64,000 nt of DNA from Fodinibius sediminis (GTDB lineage: Bacteria; Bacteroidota; Rhodothermia; Balneolales; Balneolaceae). The position numbers were made by a program, and so were the translations under genes. Positions 20,325 to 24,717 of the stretch are shown one piece after another. Location: assembly GCF_900182555.1 (NCBI RefSeq), contig NZ_FXTH01000001.1, positions 310,001 through 374,000 on the forward strand, given 5' to 3'. Every line of letters starts with the position of its first letter. Position 1 is the first letter of the stretch. The notes below the pieces were generated by a model. That model worked only from the letters and a program-made list of their open reading frames with translations. It did not search any database and was not told the DNA's origin.

Positions 20325-20852
20325 AATCCGTAGTATTCTATTAAGGGTTTTGGCTCTTTTGATGGTGCTGCCATATCAGGCCGGCAAGGCGCATCGTTCC
20401 TGATGCATTTAGCCTGATTTCAACGTAGTTATCATAACTAAAATGCCTATTTGCCTTGAAAAGGCAAGAAAAAATGTGGCTGTCTAAAAGGTTTTATATT
20501 GGTTTAACTGCCTAATAATTTAAGGTTGTAACATCCTTTCAAAGGGCTACCATCCCCTTGTCCTCCTTCTCCAGAGCTTGTCCCGAAAACTATCGGGAGA
20601 GAAGAGGGATTCAGGGAGATTGATTCTCCCACACCATCCACGGCCTCTCAACACCTGAAGAGGTTCTTAAAACCCGGCTGCAGCTCAGCCAGCAGGAACA
20701 AACCGCCATATTCATATCCCTGCCTCACCTCAATCCTCCTGTCCTCCTTCTCCAAGGAGGAACGCACCAACCAACCTGGATAACTTATTTATTCATTTAA
20801 AAGGTATAATTATATTTTGATATTGGTGGCCATAATTCAAGATCAAGGGATC
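20325..20852. other. Non-coding region before DUF559 copy 1
   Basis: The first part (20325-20558) has only small dyads (GCATC/GATGC near 20390-20405 and TTGCCTT/AAGGCAA near 20452-20468). From 20559 it consists of the 67-bp repeat, a 105-base spacer, and from 20731 the start of the duplicated cassette with a CCTCCTT/AAGGAGG hairpin (20744-20761) and an A/T-rich promoter-like stretch. Confidence 0.55.
20559..20625 (+). repeat. 67-bp direct repeat, left copy
   Basis: This sequence recurs at 21228-21294 with one difference in 67 (G at 20574 for A). It contains the hairpin TCCCGA-aaacta-TCGGGA. The two copies enclose the first DUF559 gene like the boundaries of a mobile unit. Confidence 0.85.
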
Positions 20853-21267
20853 ATGAATAAATCACATTACCATAAAGAAAATAAGGAGTTAGCTCGAAAG
20901 CTTCGTAAAGACGGCACCAAAGGTGAAGCAACCCTCTGGGAGAAGGTATTAAGAGCAAAGCAATTTCACGGATATCAATTTAACCGCCAGTATTGCATTG
21001 ATGAGTATATTGTAGATTTCATCTCACGTAAACTAAAGCTGATTATCGAAGTGGACGGTTACTCCCATACCTTCAAACAGGAAGAAGATAAATGTAGAGA
21101 TAAAAAGTTAATCGAACTGGGATACACCACGGTACGGTTTTCAGAACAGGAAGTCTGCACTGACCTGGACAATGTTATACGGGTTTTAGAAAGCTATCTT
21201 CCAGACAACAATTGAATTCAATCCTCCTGTCCTCCTTCTCCAAAGCTTGTCCCGAAAACTATCGGGA
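20731..21267 (+). repeat. 537-bp cassette with DUF559 gene, copy 1
   Basis: The segment is repeated in the same orientation at 23982-24518. By reading, the two copies differ by a single base within the DUF559 gene (CTT versus CTG for one Leu codon near its end). The unit starts with CAATCCTCCTGTCC, includes its own upstream region and ends in the TCGGGA hairpin arm. Confidence 0.9.
20853..21215 (+). CDS. DUF559 (Vsr-like) endonuclease-domain protein, copy 1
   Basis: The 120-residue protein has the DUF559 pattern: RKDGTKGEATLWEKVLRAKQ, then YIVDFISRKLKLIIEVDG with the Asp and Glu-x-Asp of a PD-(D/E)xK/Vsr-like nuclease core, then SHTFKQEEDKCRDKKL and TTVRFSEQEV. The ATG at 20853 follows AAGGGA; an open stretch upstream is not needed. 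DUF559 proteins are small single-domain nucleases of unclear role, sometimes scattered in many copies. Here the gene lies in a duplicated cassette between 67-bp direct repeats, so mobility is suggested. Cleavage activity has not been shown by anything here. Confidence 0.85.
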   Translation: MNKSHYHKENKELARKLRKDGTKGEATLWEKVLRAKQFHGYQFNRQYCIDEYIVDFISRKLKLIIEVDGYSHTFKQEEDKCRDKKLIELGYTTVRFSEQEVCTDLDNVIRVLESYLPDNN

Positions 21268-21294
21268 GAGAAGAGGGATTCAGGGAGATTGATT
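21228..21294 (+). repeat. 67-bp direct repeat, right copy
   Basis: It matches 20559-20625 at 66 of 67 positions and starts 12 bases after the DUF559 stop. A third version, opened by 46 other bases (24519-24564), follows DUF559 copy 2. Confidence 0.85.
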
Positions 21295-21422
21295 AACCTT
21301 AATTGAATTTTTAGACTGCCTCAACAACTAGTTAAACACATATCTATGTAGATTTTTACAGCCATAGAAGATCAATCCTACTGCCTCTCTTCTGTGGAAA
21401 ACCTCGCATCAGGAAGCTTAAA

Positions 21423-21449
21423 ATGGGACGGGCTGGAAGCCCTTCCCAT
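21423..21449 (-). terminator. Intrinsic terminator after purU
   Basis: ATGGGA-c-GGGCT pairs with AGCC-c-t-TCCCAT around a GGA loop (21423-21449, one mismatch). Read on the minus strand it lies six bases past the purU stop and runs into ATTTTAAG; on the plus strand it is followed by ATTTTTC, so it may work both ways. Confidence 0.65.
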
Positions 21450-21454
21450 ATTTT

Positions 21455-22291
21455 TCACTCAAAGACGATCGTCCGGTTGTCATGTATGAAAATCCGCTCC
21501 TCCAGCAACAGCTTTACGGCCTTTGCCAACACGGTCTTCTCCACATCCCGGCCGGCATTGGCCATCTGCTCGGCAGTATGCGTATGGTTGACCGGCAATA
21601 CATCCTGGGCAATGATGGGGCCCTCGTCAAGATCATCCGTAACAAAATGTGCAGTAGCCCCGATGATCTTAACCCCGCGCTCAAAGGCCTGCCGGTAAGG
21701 ATTGGCCCCGATGAAGGCCGGCAAAAAGGAATGATGAATGTTTAAAATGCGATCCTGGTACCGATCGACAAAGTCGGAGGTAAAAATACGCATATACTTC
21801 GCCAGTACGATGTAATCGGGAGCATACTGATCCACGACCTCCTGCAGCTGTTTCTCATGGGCCCTGCGCTCCAGCCCCTCATGGCTCAGGTGGTGAAACG
21901 GGATATCAAAAGCACGGGTTAAACTGCCAAGAGTATCATGGTTGCTGATCACAGCATCAATCCTGGCGGGGATCTCCCCGTAGCTGTGCCTCAGCAGCAG
22001 ATCTCCCAGGCAGTGCGCCTCCCTGGTCGCCATAATCACAATAGAGCGGTTTCCAATTTCAGCCTGCCGGATATTTGCCGCCGGCGGAAGAGCCTCCTCA
22101 AGATCCGCCACAACATCGTTTGGGGATTCCGTTCCCTCAAAAGCTGTTCGCATGACAAAATGATCGGTTGTTGCATCCACAAATTCCTGGTTGCTGACAA
22201 TATTCAGCCCGTGCTGGTACAATACCTCCGTGATTTTGTATACCAATCCCTTCTCGTCCGGACAGTCAATATGCAGTACTTGTTCCCCCAT
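21455..22291 (-). CDS. purU: Formyltetrahydrofolate deformylase
   Basis: The 278-residue protein has an N-terminal ACT domain (HIDCPDEKGLVYKITEVLYQ, 1-85) and a C-terminal formyltransferase-like hydrolase domain (VISNHDTLG, HHSFLPAFIGANPYRQAFERG, GATAHFVTDDLDEGPIIAQD). PurU hydrolyses 10-formyl-THF to formate and THF, balancing one-carbon pools and feeding PurT. Length is typical (about 280). It is a single gene, divergent from mnmE, and lies between the two DUF559 cassettes. Confidence 0.96.
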   Translation of the reverse strand: MGEQVLHIDCPDEKGLVYKITEVLYQHGLNIVSNQEFVDATTDHFVMRTAFEGTESPNDVVADLEEALPPAANIRQAEIGNRSIVIMATREAHCLGDLLLRHSYGEIPARIDAVISNHDTLGSLTRAFDIPFHHLSHEGLERRAHEKQLQEVVDQYAPDYIVLAKYMRIFTSDFVDRYQDRILNIHHSFLPAFIGANPYRQAFERGVKIIGATAHFVTDDLDEGPIIAQDVLPVNHTHTAEQMANAGRDVEKTVLAKAVKLLLEERIFIHDNRTIVFE

Positions 22292-22459
22292 TGATCCGTT
22301 GTTTCATTCGTTAATTGATACTATGTCTTCTAAAAACAGCCTGAACAGTAAAAATAAAATCCACGCCGATCAATAAAATTTCGGCAACAGGCAGACCAAG
22401 CACCAGTGCTGCCAACATGGATGCTGATTATACCTGCCAGAGTCGTTATATTCAACACT

Positions 22460-23872
22460 ATGAAAAAAAGCACCGAGCAAACAGCTACCGAAACCAGCGC
22501 CACAATCACCGAACGCCCACCCATCGCGGCCATTGCCACACCGGTTGGCGAGGGCGGCATTGCCGTCATTCGCGTATCCGGGAAAGAGGCCATCGCCAAT
22601 GTCAATCGGGCTTTCCGGGGGGCGGACCTGACCGAACAGCAGAGTCATACCGTTCATTTTGGCAAAATTGTGGATGAGCGGGACGAGGTCGTTGATGAAG
22701 TGCTGGCTACGCTCTTCCACTCGCCAAAATCATACACCGGCGAAGAAACTGTGGAAATATCCTGCCACGGCGGGGTACTGGTTACCCAGGCCGTGCTGGA
22801 AACAATACTGGGGCTCGGCATACAGCCGGCGGAGGCCGGAGAATTTACCCAGCGGGCCTTTTTAAACGGCAAGATGGAGCTCAGCCAGGCCGAAGCAGTG
22901 GCTGATCTCATTCATGCCAAAAGCGCCAAGGCGCTCGACTCCGCCCACCAGCAGCTGGAGGGTCGACTGGGGGAACATATCAAACAGTTCCGGCAGCAGA
23001 TTATAGATGCCACGGCCATGGTCGAGCTGGAGCTCGACTTTGTAGAGGAGGATGTTGAGTTTGCCAACAAGGAGCAGCTCAAACAGCTGCTTGAAGAACT
23101 CGACCAGGAAATTGACAGCCTGCTGGCCACTTACGAAACCGGGCGGCTGGTCAAGCACGGGGTGCAAACCGTTTTTATGGGGCTGCCCAATGCCGGCAAA
23201 TCCACCCTGCTTAATACCCTGGTAGGCAAGGACCGGGCTATTGTTACCGATATTGCCGGCACCACGCGCGATACCATTGATGTGGACTGGAGTTATGACG
23301 GTCTTCGATTCATCCTGACGGATACGGCGGGCCTCCGTGAAACCGAGGACATTGTGGAAGCGGAAGGCGTCAAGCGTTCCCAGAAGGCCTTCCGGGAGGC
23401 CGACCTGGTTGTCTACCTGAAAGACTTGTCGCATCAGCTGACTGGGGAGGAGCAGCAGGACATCTCCTCCCTGCAGCAGGATGCCGGTGAGACCCCCTTT
23501 GTACTGATCGGCACCAAAAAAGACATCGCCCGGCCCGTGGACGATGAACGCATCGCCTATGATCTCAAAATTTCAGCCCTGGAAGGGGCAAAAATTGAGG
23601 ATCTGAAACAGCTGATGAAGCAGCGGGCGCTGGAAAACAAACACTATGATGCCTCCAGCCTGCTGGTGACCTCCAGCCGCCACCGGGATGCCCTGCAGAA
23701 GGCCCGCGAACATATTCGCAGCGCCCTGCAGGCCCTGGAACAGGGCCTGACCGGGGATTTCCTCTCCATCGATTTGCGGTCGGCCCTTAAAGACCTGGGG
23801 ACAATCACCGGCGAAATAACAACCGAAGACATCCTGGATTCCATCTTCTCGCGCTTCTGCATCGGTAAGTGA
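22460..23872 (+). CDS. mnmE: tRNA uridine-5-carboxymethylaminomethyl modification GTPase
   Basis: The 470-residue protein has the N-terminal formyl-THF-binding domain (AAIATPVGEGGIAVIRVSG), a central helical domain and a Ras-like G domain inserted in it (GLPNAGKSTLLN, TTRDTIDVDW, DTAGLRETED), ending in the FCIGK C-terminus with the conserved Cys. MnmE works with MnmG to modify U34 of certain tRNAs. The ATG at 22460 gives the usual length and the usual N-terminus after a short Thr/Glu-rich extension. It is bounded downstream by the second DUF559 cassette. Confidence 0.97.
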   Translation: MKKSTEQTATETSATITERPPIAAIATPVGEGGIAVIRVSGKEAIANVNRAFRGADLTEQQSHTVHFGKIVDERDEVVDEVLATLFHSPKSYTGEETVEISCHGGVLVTQAVLETILGLGIQPAEAGEFTQRAFLNGKMELSQAEAVADLIHAKSAKALDSAHQQLEGRLGEHIKQFRQQIIDATAMVELELDFVEEDVEFANKEQLKQLLEELDQEIDSLLATYETGRLVKHGVQTVFMGLPNAGKSTLLNTLVGKDRAIVTDIAGTTRDTIDVDWSYDGLRFILTDTAGLRETEDIVEAEGVKRSQKAFREADLVVYLKDLSHQLTGEEQQDISSLQQDAGETPFVLIGTKKDIARPVDDERIAYDLKISALEGAKIEDLKQLMKQRALENKHYDASSLLVTSSRHRDALQKAREHIRSALQALEQGLTGDFLSIDLRSALKDLGTITGEITTEDILDSIFSRFCIGK

Positions 23873-23981
23873 TATACATAGAACGCAGATCATACGGGCT
23901 GTGCGGGTTGTTGCAGCTTATAATACCCACGCTTATCGATTAAAAACTCATTTTGAACTATTGAAACCATAGTAACACCGG

Positions 23982-24518
23982 CAATCCTCCTGTCCTCCTT
24001 CTCCAAGGAGGAACGCACCAACCAACCTGGATAACTTATTTATTCATTTAAAAGGTATAATTATATTTTGATATTGGTGGCCATAATTCAAGATCAAGGG
24101 ATCATGAATAAATCACATTACCATAAAGAAAATAAGGAGTTAGCTCGAAAGCTTCGTAAAGACGGCACCAAAGGTGAAGCAACCCTCTGGGAGAAGGTAT
24201 TAAGAGCAAAGCAATTTCACGGATATCAATTTAACCGCCAGTATTGCATTGATGAGTATATTGTAGATTTCATCTCACGTAAACTAAAGCTGATTATCGA
24301 AGTGGACGGTTACTCCCATACCTTCAAACAGGAAGAAGATAAATGTAGAGATAAAAAGTTAATCGAACTGGGATACACCACGGTACGGTTTTCAGAACAG
24401 GAAGTCTGCACTGACCTGGACAATGTTATACGGGTTTTAGAAAGCTATCTGCCAGACAACAATTGAATTCAATCCTCCTGTCCTCCTTCTCCAAAGCTTG
24501 TCCCGAAAACTATCGGGA
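23982..24518 (+). repeat. 537-bp cassette with DUF559 gene, copy 2
   Basis: This copy has the same orientation as 20731-21267, 3251 bp away, and is almost identical. The left 67-bp repeat found before copy 1 is missing here, and the right one is split by 46 bases (24519-24564) that themselves contain an AGGGAC/GTCCCT dyad before resuming with AAGAGGGATTC up to 24586. Confidence 0.9.
24104..24466 (+). CDS. DUF559 (Vsr-like) endonuclease-domain protein, copy 2
   Basis: The 120-residue product is identical to that of the gene at 20853; the only base change (CTG for CTT) is silent. Upstream and ribosome-binding sequences are the same, so both are probably expressed. Two perfect copies 3.25 kb apart point to very recent duplication or ongoing gene conversion. 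The function is as uncertain as for copy 1. Confidence 0.85.
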   Translation: MNKSHYHKENKELARKLRKDGTKGEATLWEKVLRAKQFHGYQFNRQYCIDEYIVDFISRKLKLIIEVDGYSHTFKQEEDKCRDKKLIELGYTTVRFSEQEVCTDLDNVIRVLESYLPDNN

Positions 24519-24717
24519 TAGGGACGCACCAATTACGTCTGCCGCCCCCAATGTCCCTCCTGGGAAGAGGGATTCAGGGAGATTGACCCGCTATTCAATA
24601 AAATCAATTTAACCTTTTAGCCGACAAATAGGTTATAATACGCGTTAAAAGACCTCTGCTCCTGAGCTAAAAAGCGCGGGCAGGGCTTGGAACCGCAGAG
24701 TTATACTCCCGGCGTAC

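Follow-up and report, generated by a model that had tools for sequence, protein, structure and literature searches.

A DUF559 Vsr-like nuclease gene carried between REPIN-like palindromic repeats in Fodinibius sediminis suggests a little-noticed family of selfish elements

Why does one stretch of the Fodinibius sediminis genome carry the same small nuclease gene twice, once on either side of purU and mnmE? The stretch, henceforth referred to as the window, comprises 64,000 nucleotides of assembly GCF_900182555.1 (contig NZ_FXTH01000001.1, positions 310,001 to 374,000), and all coordinates below are counted from its first letter. The explanation favoured here, with somewhat better than even confidence, is that the twin cassettes are gene-bearing members of a dispersed family of palindromes resembling REPINs (doublets of repetitive extragenic palindromic, or REP, sequences), and that they represent a selfish element of the REPtron kind in which a Vsr-like nuclease of the DUF559 family replaces the transposase.

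The two direct copies of 537 bp lie at 20731-21267 and 23982-24518. As reported in a first-pass annotation of the window, they differ by a single base (21200 T versus 24451 G), which is silent since CTT and CTG are both leucine codons. At 99.8% identity over 537 bp, a chance origin of the pair is out of the question. The identity breaks off exactly at these coordinates, and both ends fall within repeat sequence. The left end is the start of a palindromic repeat, CAATCCTCCTGTCCTCCTTCTCCAAGGAGGAACGC, and the right end falls within another repeat, a complete one, at the point where the loop measures 2 nt in copy 1 and 45 nt in copy 2. A further 23 bp past the loop, GAAGAGGGATTCAGGGAGATTGA, are common to both copies (21270-21292 and 24564-24586), so that the natural units are 20731-21292 and 23982-24586. 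The copied unit therefore exceeds the gene, as the annotation had recognized, and takes in the downstream hairpin. The description of that hairpin as partial does not stand, since the shared 23 bp place the whole downstream palindromic element in each copy. At their boundaries the units have an imperfect, REPIN-like palindrome, CAATCCTCCTG...GGGAGATTG, and their outer ends are imperfect inverted repeats (CAATCCTCCTG-TCCTCCTTCTCC versus CAATCTCCCTGAATCCCTCTTCTC), contrary to the earlier statement that terminal inverted repeats are lacking. The same annotation correctly described the cassette as having no transposase beside it, and none is present within the unit. The features of the two units and of the neighbouring element are as follows.

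20551-20623, forward strand: gene-less palindromic element with a short loop, upstream of copy 1; shares 96% identity across 74 bp with the element that follows copy 1
20731-20770, forward strand: left half-element of copy 1, CAATCCTCCTGTCCTCCTTCTCCAAGGAGGAACGCACCAA; its first 33 bp are the exact 5' ends of gene-less elements on contigs C19 and C25
20853-21215, forward strand: DUF559 Vsr-like nuclease gene of copy 1, 120 aa; Pfam PF04480 (E 8e-32), fold matches to 3hrl, I-Bth0305I and Vsr
21219-21292, forward strand: right element of copy 1 with a 2-nt loop; a mosaic of the copy 2 element (left part) and the 20551 element (right part)
20731-21292, forward strand: whole unit of copy 1; matches copy 2 over 20731-21267 save one base
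23982-24021, forward strand: left half-element of copy 2, from comparison of the copies
24104-24466, forward strand: DUF559 Vsr-like nuclease gene of copy 2, encoding the same protein as copy 1, from the open reading frame (ORF) and comparison of the copies
24470-24586, forward strand: right element of copy 2 with the full 45-nt loop, compared with gene-less elements
23982-24586, forward strand: whole unit of copy 2; matches copy 1 over 23982-24518 save one base

An assembly artefact, in which one cassette was placed twice in error, would suit a draft genome (labelled G000; 4.43 Mb in 50 contigs) in which contigs C21 and C25 start with the same 95 bp leading into one such repeat. It can be given hardly any weight, as the copies lie 3.25 kb apart within a 471-kb contig, have unique flanks on both sides, and differ by the single-nucleotide polymorphism and by the length of the right-hand loop. 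The identical starts of C21 and C25 (loci L009 and L011) indicate that a longer repeated sequence probably breaks the assembly there.

Searching the source genome with the cassette returned 17 further matching places, all to the repeat parts and none to the gene, which is itself present in these two copies only. This genome-wide search and the comparison of empty sites described below had both been proposed with the first-pass annotation. A view of the pair as standing alone gives way to that of a repeat family with many gene-less members. The places read out are mostly intergenic gene-less elements of ~60-123 bp, consisting of CAATCCTCCTGTCCTCCTTCTCCAAGGAGGAACTC, a variable loop and AAGTCCCTCTTGGAGAAGAGGGATTTAGGGAGATTG. 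Both halves are hairpins, one being an inverted relative of the other in keeping with the REPIN plan, and the single-strand folds of the elements are stabler than those of shuffled sequences (z -2.5 to -3.6). An Rfam scan of the window gave no match. The family is genus-specific: 11 of the 12 genomes from the genus carry it, with between 1 and 30 matching pieces each, as opposed to 0 of 27 genomes of other genera. The palindrome halves differ in a conserved way, and their arms, if paired, would give T-G and C-A mispairs. Vsr enzymes recognize T-G mismatches, with which the T-G mispairs predicted for the arms may be compared (20731-21292 versus the gene-less elements).

A search of the genome for Y1_Tnp (PF01797) gave no match at E ≤ 0.001, other transposase families not having been searched genome-wide, so that a REP-associated tyrosine transposase (RAYT) is not at hand. 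Movement of repeats and cassette in trans by another, unrecognized transposase would have a parallel in the REP families known to lack a dedicated transposase, such as the CGTC class (PMC3733652). It is considered distinctly improbable in view of the Y1_Tnp result, with the scope just given, and of the fact that DUF559 is the one gene found recurrently inside these units.

The protein encoded in the window belongs to PF04480/DUF559 (Pfam E 8e-32), and residues D55, E66, D68, H72 and D79 are invariant in an alignment of 54 members. Profile searches recovered the Neisseria DUF559 structure 3hrl and the catalytic domain of I-Bth0305I (3r3p, E 5.5e-7). The AlphaFold model (mean predicted local distance difference test score, pLDDT, of 83.7) was closest to 3hrl (Z 16.1, root-mean-square deviation 1.5 over 93 residues) and also matched 3r3p (Z 12.6, deviation 2.2, 92 residues) and Vsr 1cw0 (Z 9.8, deviation 2.1, 96 residues). 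The protein thus models as a nuclease of the Vsr/EDxHD fold, and, in line with the homing-like element suggested in the first-pass annotation, it matches the homing endonuclease I-Bth0305I in both sequence and fold. A fold in common by itself shows no function. The reading frame is under purifying selection (pN 0.11-0.18, pS ~0.8), although the copies in congeners G003 and G006 are decayed, with an internal stop and an altered end, respectively. Next to the DUF559 gene of G003 lies a repeat-like stretch of another kind, GTCATTGCGAGAAGTGCCGTGGGTTGGCGGGACGACACGGCAATCTCCC (L059:1620-1720). DUF559 is patchily distributed: 19 of the 39 relatives have it, with as many as 7 copies in a genome. Plasmid and phage relatives of the protein are few and weak (28 and 11 records, respectively, none above 60% identity). 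A defence-system role was considered and rejected, the best PADLOC match reaching only E 0.004.

The Vsr fold (Z 9.8 to 1cw0) would also be expected of a mismatch-repair nuclease that serves the host, in which case the palindromes would be ordinary transcription terminators. Caulobacter VsrA, which shares the fold and contains a DUF559 domain, is linked to a solitary cytosine methyltransferase and is required for the SOS response in cells without one cytosine methyltransferase (PMC12907096). The locus studied here differs from VsrA in having no methyltransferase among its neighbours, although an unlinked partner could exist, and in its repeat-bounded, mobile distribution. A host repair gene is improbable given this lack of a methyltransferase at the locus, the patchy occurrence and copy numbers just described, repeats that flank the gene on both sides, and units inserted within essential genes.

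The pairing of DUF559 genes with repeats was assessed by local alignment of 350-400 bp upstream of a gene with the same length downstream, in direct or inverted orientation, using a score cut-off of 32 (the 95th percentile of cross-locus pairs). Among the relatives, 27 of 39 DUF559 genes were two-sided by this measure, compared with 0/24 purU/purN/mnmE loci and 0/55 window ORFs. Across 75 DUF559 loci from Bacteroidota, Cyanobacteria, Planctomycetota, Chloroflexi, Proteobacteria, Patescibacteria and others, 56 were two-sided versus 3 of 66 other ORFs in those loci. The repeats have a common format, a C-rich/G-rich hairpin followed by a G-run tail, e.g. AGTCCCCTCTTGAGAGGGGATTTAGGGGTGTG. Such a hairpin and tail lay within 380 bp of 86/99 DUF559 genes on at least one side and of 44/99 on both, and both tails point at the gene in 23 of the 44. 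The corresponding numbers in two control sets were 7/50 and 0/50, and 6/57 and 1/57. Similarity of the repeats rises with similarity of the proteins (Mantel rho 0.28, 0/1000 permutations), a covariation that common descent alone could give in part. A second repeat family is tied to another DUF559 branch; it is commonest in the three congeners holding that branch, where it amounts to 6, 15 and 14 pieces, and is rare or lacking outside them.

Both cassettes were compared with the corresponding sites in relatives. The neighbours of the units are a TIG-like ORF, purU, mnmE and a phosphatase-like ORF, and two of these lie between the copies and outside the element.

21455-22291, reverse strand: purU (Pfam Formyl_trans_N and ACT)
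22460-23872, forward strand: mnmE (Pfam TrmE_N and MnmE_helical)

Congener G007 has the same order, TIG-domain gene-purU-mnmE-phosphatase, and its two gaps, of 270 and 543 bp, hold no repeat; the corresponding gaps in the source genome are ~1130 and 846 bp. Congener G005 likewise has no repeat at the copy 1 site, and a gene-less repeat is located instead in its purU-mnmE interval. With such shorter, repeat-free gaps in G007, the two cassettes have the appearance of insertions that occurred in this lineage, the alternative being loss from the relatives. The closest relatives of the nuclease, at 73-84% identity, are found in congeners G002, G003 and G006, elsewhere in their genomes. The genes of G003 and G006 adjoin an M48 peptidase gene, next to which the source genome has a gene-less repeat only (locus L003). 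The first-pass annotation had reasoned that recombination between the cassettes would delete purU and mnmE and that selection must act against this loss; selection protecting the two genes is not needed to explain the twin-cassette structure.

The origin of copy 1 can be read in part from its right repeat. The left 47-49 nt of this repeat equal copy 2 exactly and have ~3 differences from the gene-less repeat at 20551, and the right 27 nt equal the 20551 neighbour exactly, at a point where copy 2 departs. This mosaic is the trace to be expected if the cassette was copied from copy 2 into a repeat already in place. Simple recombination or gene conversion would account for it as well, and it is silent on whether the nuclease made the break. 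Passive copying, in which ordinary homologous recombination or conversion acts on the repeats and the nuclease gene, lying between them, is duplicated as a passenger, would accordingly produce the same mosaic of copy 2 and neighbouring repeat. It would also place the ends of identity within repeats and allow for repeats that often occur without a close nuclease. It is regarded as possible though rather doubtful, as a passenger is not expected beside such repeats in 56/75 loci across phyla, under strong purifying selection, or as an in-frame unit in the leucyl-, isoleucyl- and valyl-tRNA synthetases (LeuRS, IleRS and ValRS).

DUF559 units were found inside or fused to genes at several places, where empty sites are available for comparison in two cases. 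At the hemE-hemF junction, four congeners (L253 in G006, L258 in G007, L259 in G002 and L260 in G003) have a unit with inverted repeats joined in frame to the beginning of hemF, and the junction is empty in eight congeners, with gaps of 81-207 bp. In LeuRS, a unit of 480-597 nt occupies one site in three distant bacteria (L046/L213, L149 and L169) and is missing from 36 relatives of one of the three carriers. The DUF559 units at hemE-hemF and in LeuRS are real insertions. A unit is present at a single other site in IleRS of three Bacteroidota (L129, L136 and L172), and further units lie in ORFs for ValRS (L171), RecG, an acyl-CoA-ligase-like protein, a cobalamin-dependent-methyltransferase-like protein and a restriction-modification protein. 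The names of all these unit-bearing ORFs are putative, being assigned from recognition of their sequences. The joining peptides LPPAPSTGGGAG and PTPTLPQGEGE are translations of the repeats. Aminoacyl-tRNA synthetases with a unit must tolerate ~160-200 extra residues. A second, gene-less insert resembling a repeat translation is present near SYYNLPPTPSNRGGKGKARP in the LeuRS of L169. Small inserts at the LeuRS site in G041, G045, G024 and G057 were examined and proved to be other than these repeats.

Among the closest known systems are REPIN/RAYT systems (REPtrons). The unit has in common with them short hairpin repeats that come in inverted pairs, numerous copies without a gene, a single dedicated gene between repeats, covariation of repeat and protein, and repeats that apparently outlast loss of the gene; RAYT loss is likewise suspected for REPs without a RAYT (PMC6006769). 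The flanked gene here encodes a DUF559 Vsr-fold nuclease, whereas REPtrons use Y1 HuH transposases (PMC6006769). The element ends read CAATC...GATTG and the GTAG foot of REPtron repeats is absent. In addition, whole gene-bearing units have been inserted here, whereas transposition of the complete unit appears not to occur in REPtrons (PMC6006769). DUF559 has already been grouped with the EDxHD homing endonucleases (PMC9403480), and the unit resembles I-Bth0305I in catalytic-domain fold and sequence and in insertion relative to empty orthologous sites. It differs in being intergenic and palindrome-bounded, with no intron or intein, and in a protein of only ~120 aa, which lacks the lengthy additional DNA-binding region that EDxHD enzymes are described as having (PMC3943268). 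The in-frame insertions recall Rickettsia palindromic elements and intragenic REPs, which enter genes such as those of tRNA synthetases (PMC3733652). The unit resembles a REPtron, and perhaps a homing element, in how it works; it has neither the transposase nor the foot of the former, nor the intron or intein of the latter. Residence in an intron or intein is usual for homing endonucleases and not universal, and free-standing ones exist. Neither Rickettsia palindromic elements nor intragenic REPs are known to contain a nuclease gene. A link between DUF559 and palindromic repeats was not found in the literature searched, which was seen mostly as titles and abstracts and had subscription papers and preprints outside its scope.

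Several observations weigh against a REPtron-like element driven by the nuclease. No target-site duplication of the kind expected for an insertion sequence or a miniature inverted-repeat element (MITE) was seen in the flanks of the two copies, for which no close empty allele was compared. The nuclease gene has reached a copy number of no more than two in this genome. Repeats occur without a close nuclease in G007 (30 pieces), G001 (11) and G005 (9), where no DUF559 gene above ~50% identity to the focal one was found; the nuclease may therefore be lost often, act in trans, or not be needed. The empty sites of the two cassettes were judged by gene order and gap length and not at the nucleotide level. 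The control thresholds and the hairpin criterion were set after the first loci had been seen, and the control sets are small. Finally, Caulobacter VsrA supports DNA damage in vivo by a member of the family, but points to another role.

From the observed association and insertions we infer, on the evidence of sequence, that the nuclease may drive the spread of these units. In its gene-bearing form, the element consists of a DUF559 nuclease gene between pairs of related C/G-rich hairpins. The nuclease would recognize the palindrome as a duplex, a cruciform or a single-strand hairpin and would break DNA at the repeats, and repair of the break would copy the version with the gene into a gene-less repeat already present, in the manner of homing. 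Copying of the cassette by break repair into existing repeats is probably how the twin copies arose.

A similar arrangement is present in Escherichia coli K-12, in which YcjD is a DUF559 protein. The repeat CCCCTCGCCCCTCTGGGGAGAGGGTTAGGGTGAGGGG, of the same hairpin and G-tail format, lies downstream of ycjD (L265:2030-2840, ycjD-fabI), and a clear copy is found on that side only. The median E. coli genome contains 19 places similar to this repeat. It is presumably the one known as Box C, first described beside fabI. Most of the ycjD region is present in ~3333 of 5426 E. coli genomes, and the gene is thus variable. A clean empty allele of ycjD was not found, the two ycjD-less strains examined holding other genes at the site.

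The occurrence of the same nuclease-repeat partnership in very distant bacteria suggests a family of selfish elements that has attracted little notice and that a nuclease, in place of a transposase, may drive. A broader proposal is offered tentatively, at less than even confidence: DUF559 nucleases may be dedicated to mobilizing a pan-bacterial, orphan class of palindromes to which the ycjD repeat belongs. They would recognize the extruded hairpin or cruciform formed by their own repeat, possibly via the conserved T-G/C-A mispairs, and their spread into other repeats, and less often in frame into essential genes, would proceed by break-and-copy. Repeats of the REP type are common throughout bacteria, and no mobilizer is known for entire classes of them. 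If the proposal is true, it would provide a candidate driver for an orphan G-rich repeat class across phyla and a role for DUF559, a family of "unknown function", and it would account for the in-frame inserts in aminoacyl-tRNA synthetases. It could be tested in ordinary E. coli K-12, and would join two selfish strategies, those of homing endonucleases and of REPIN-like repeats.

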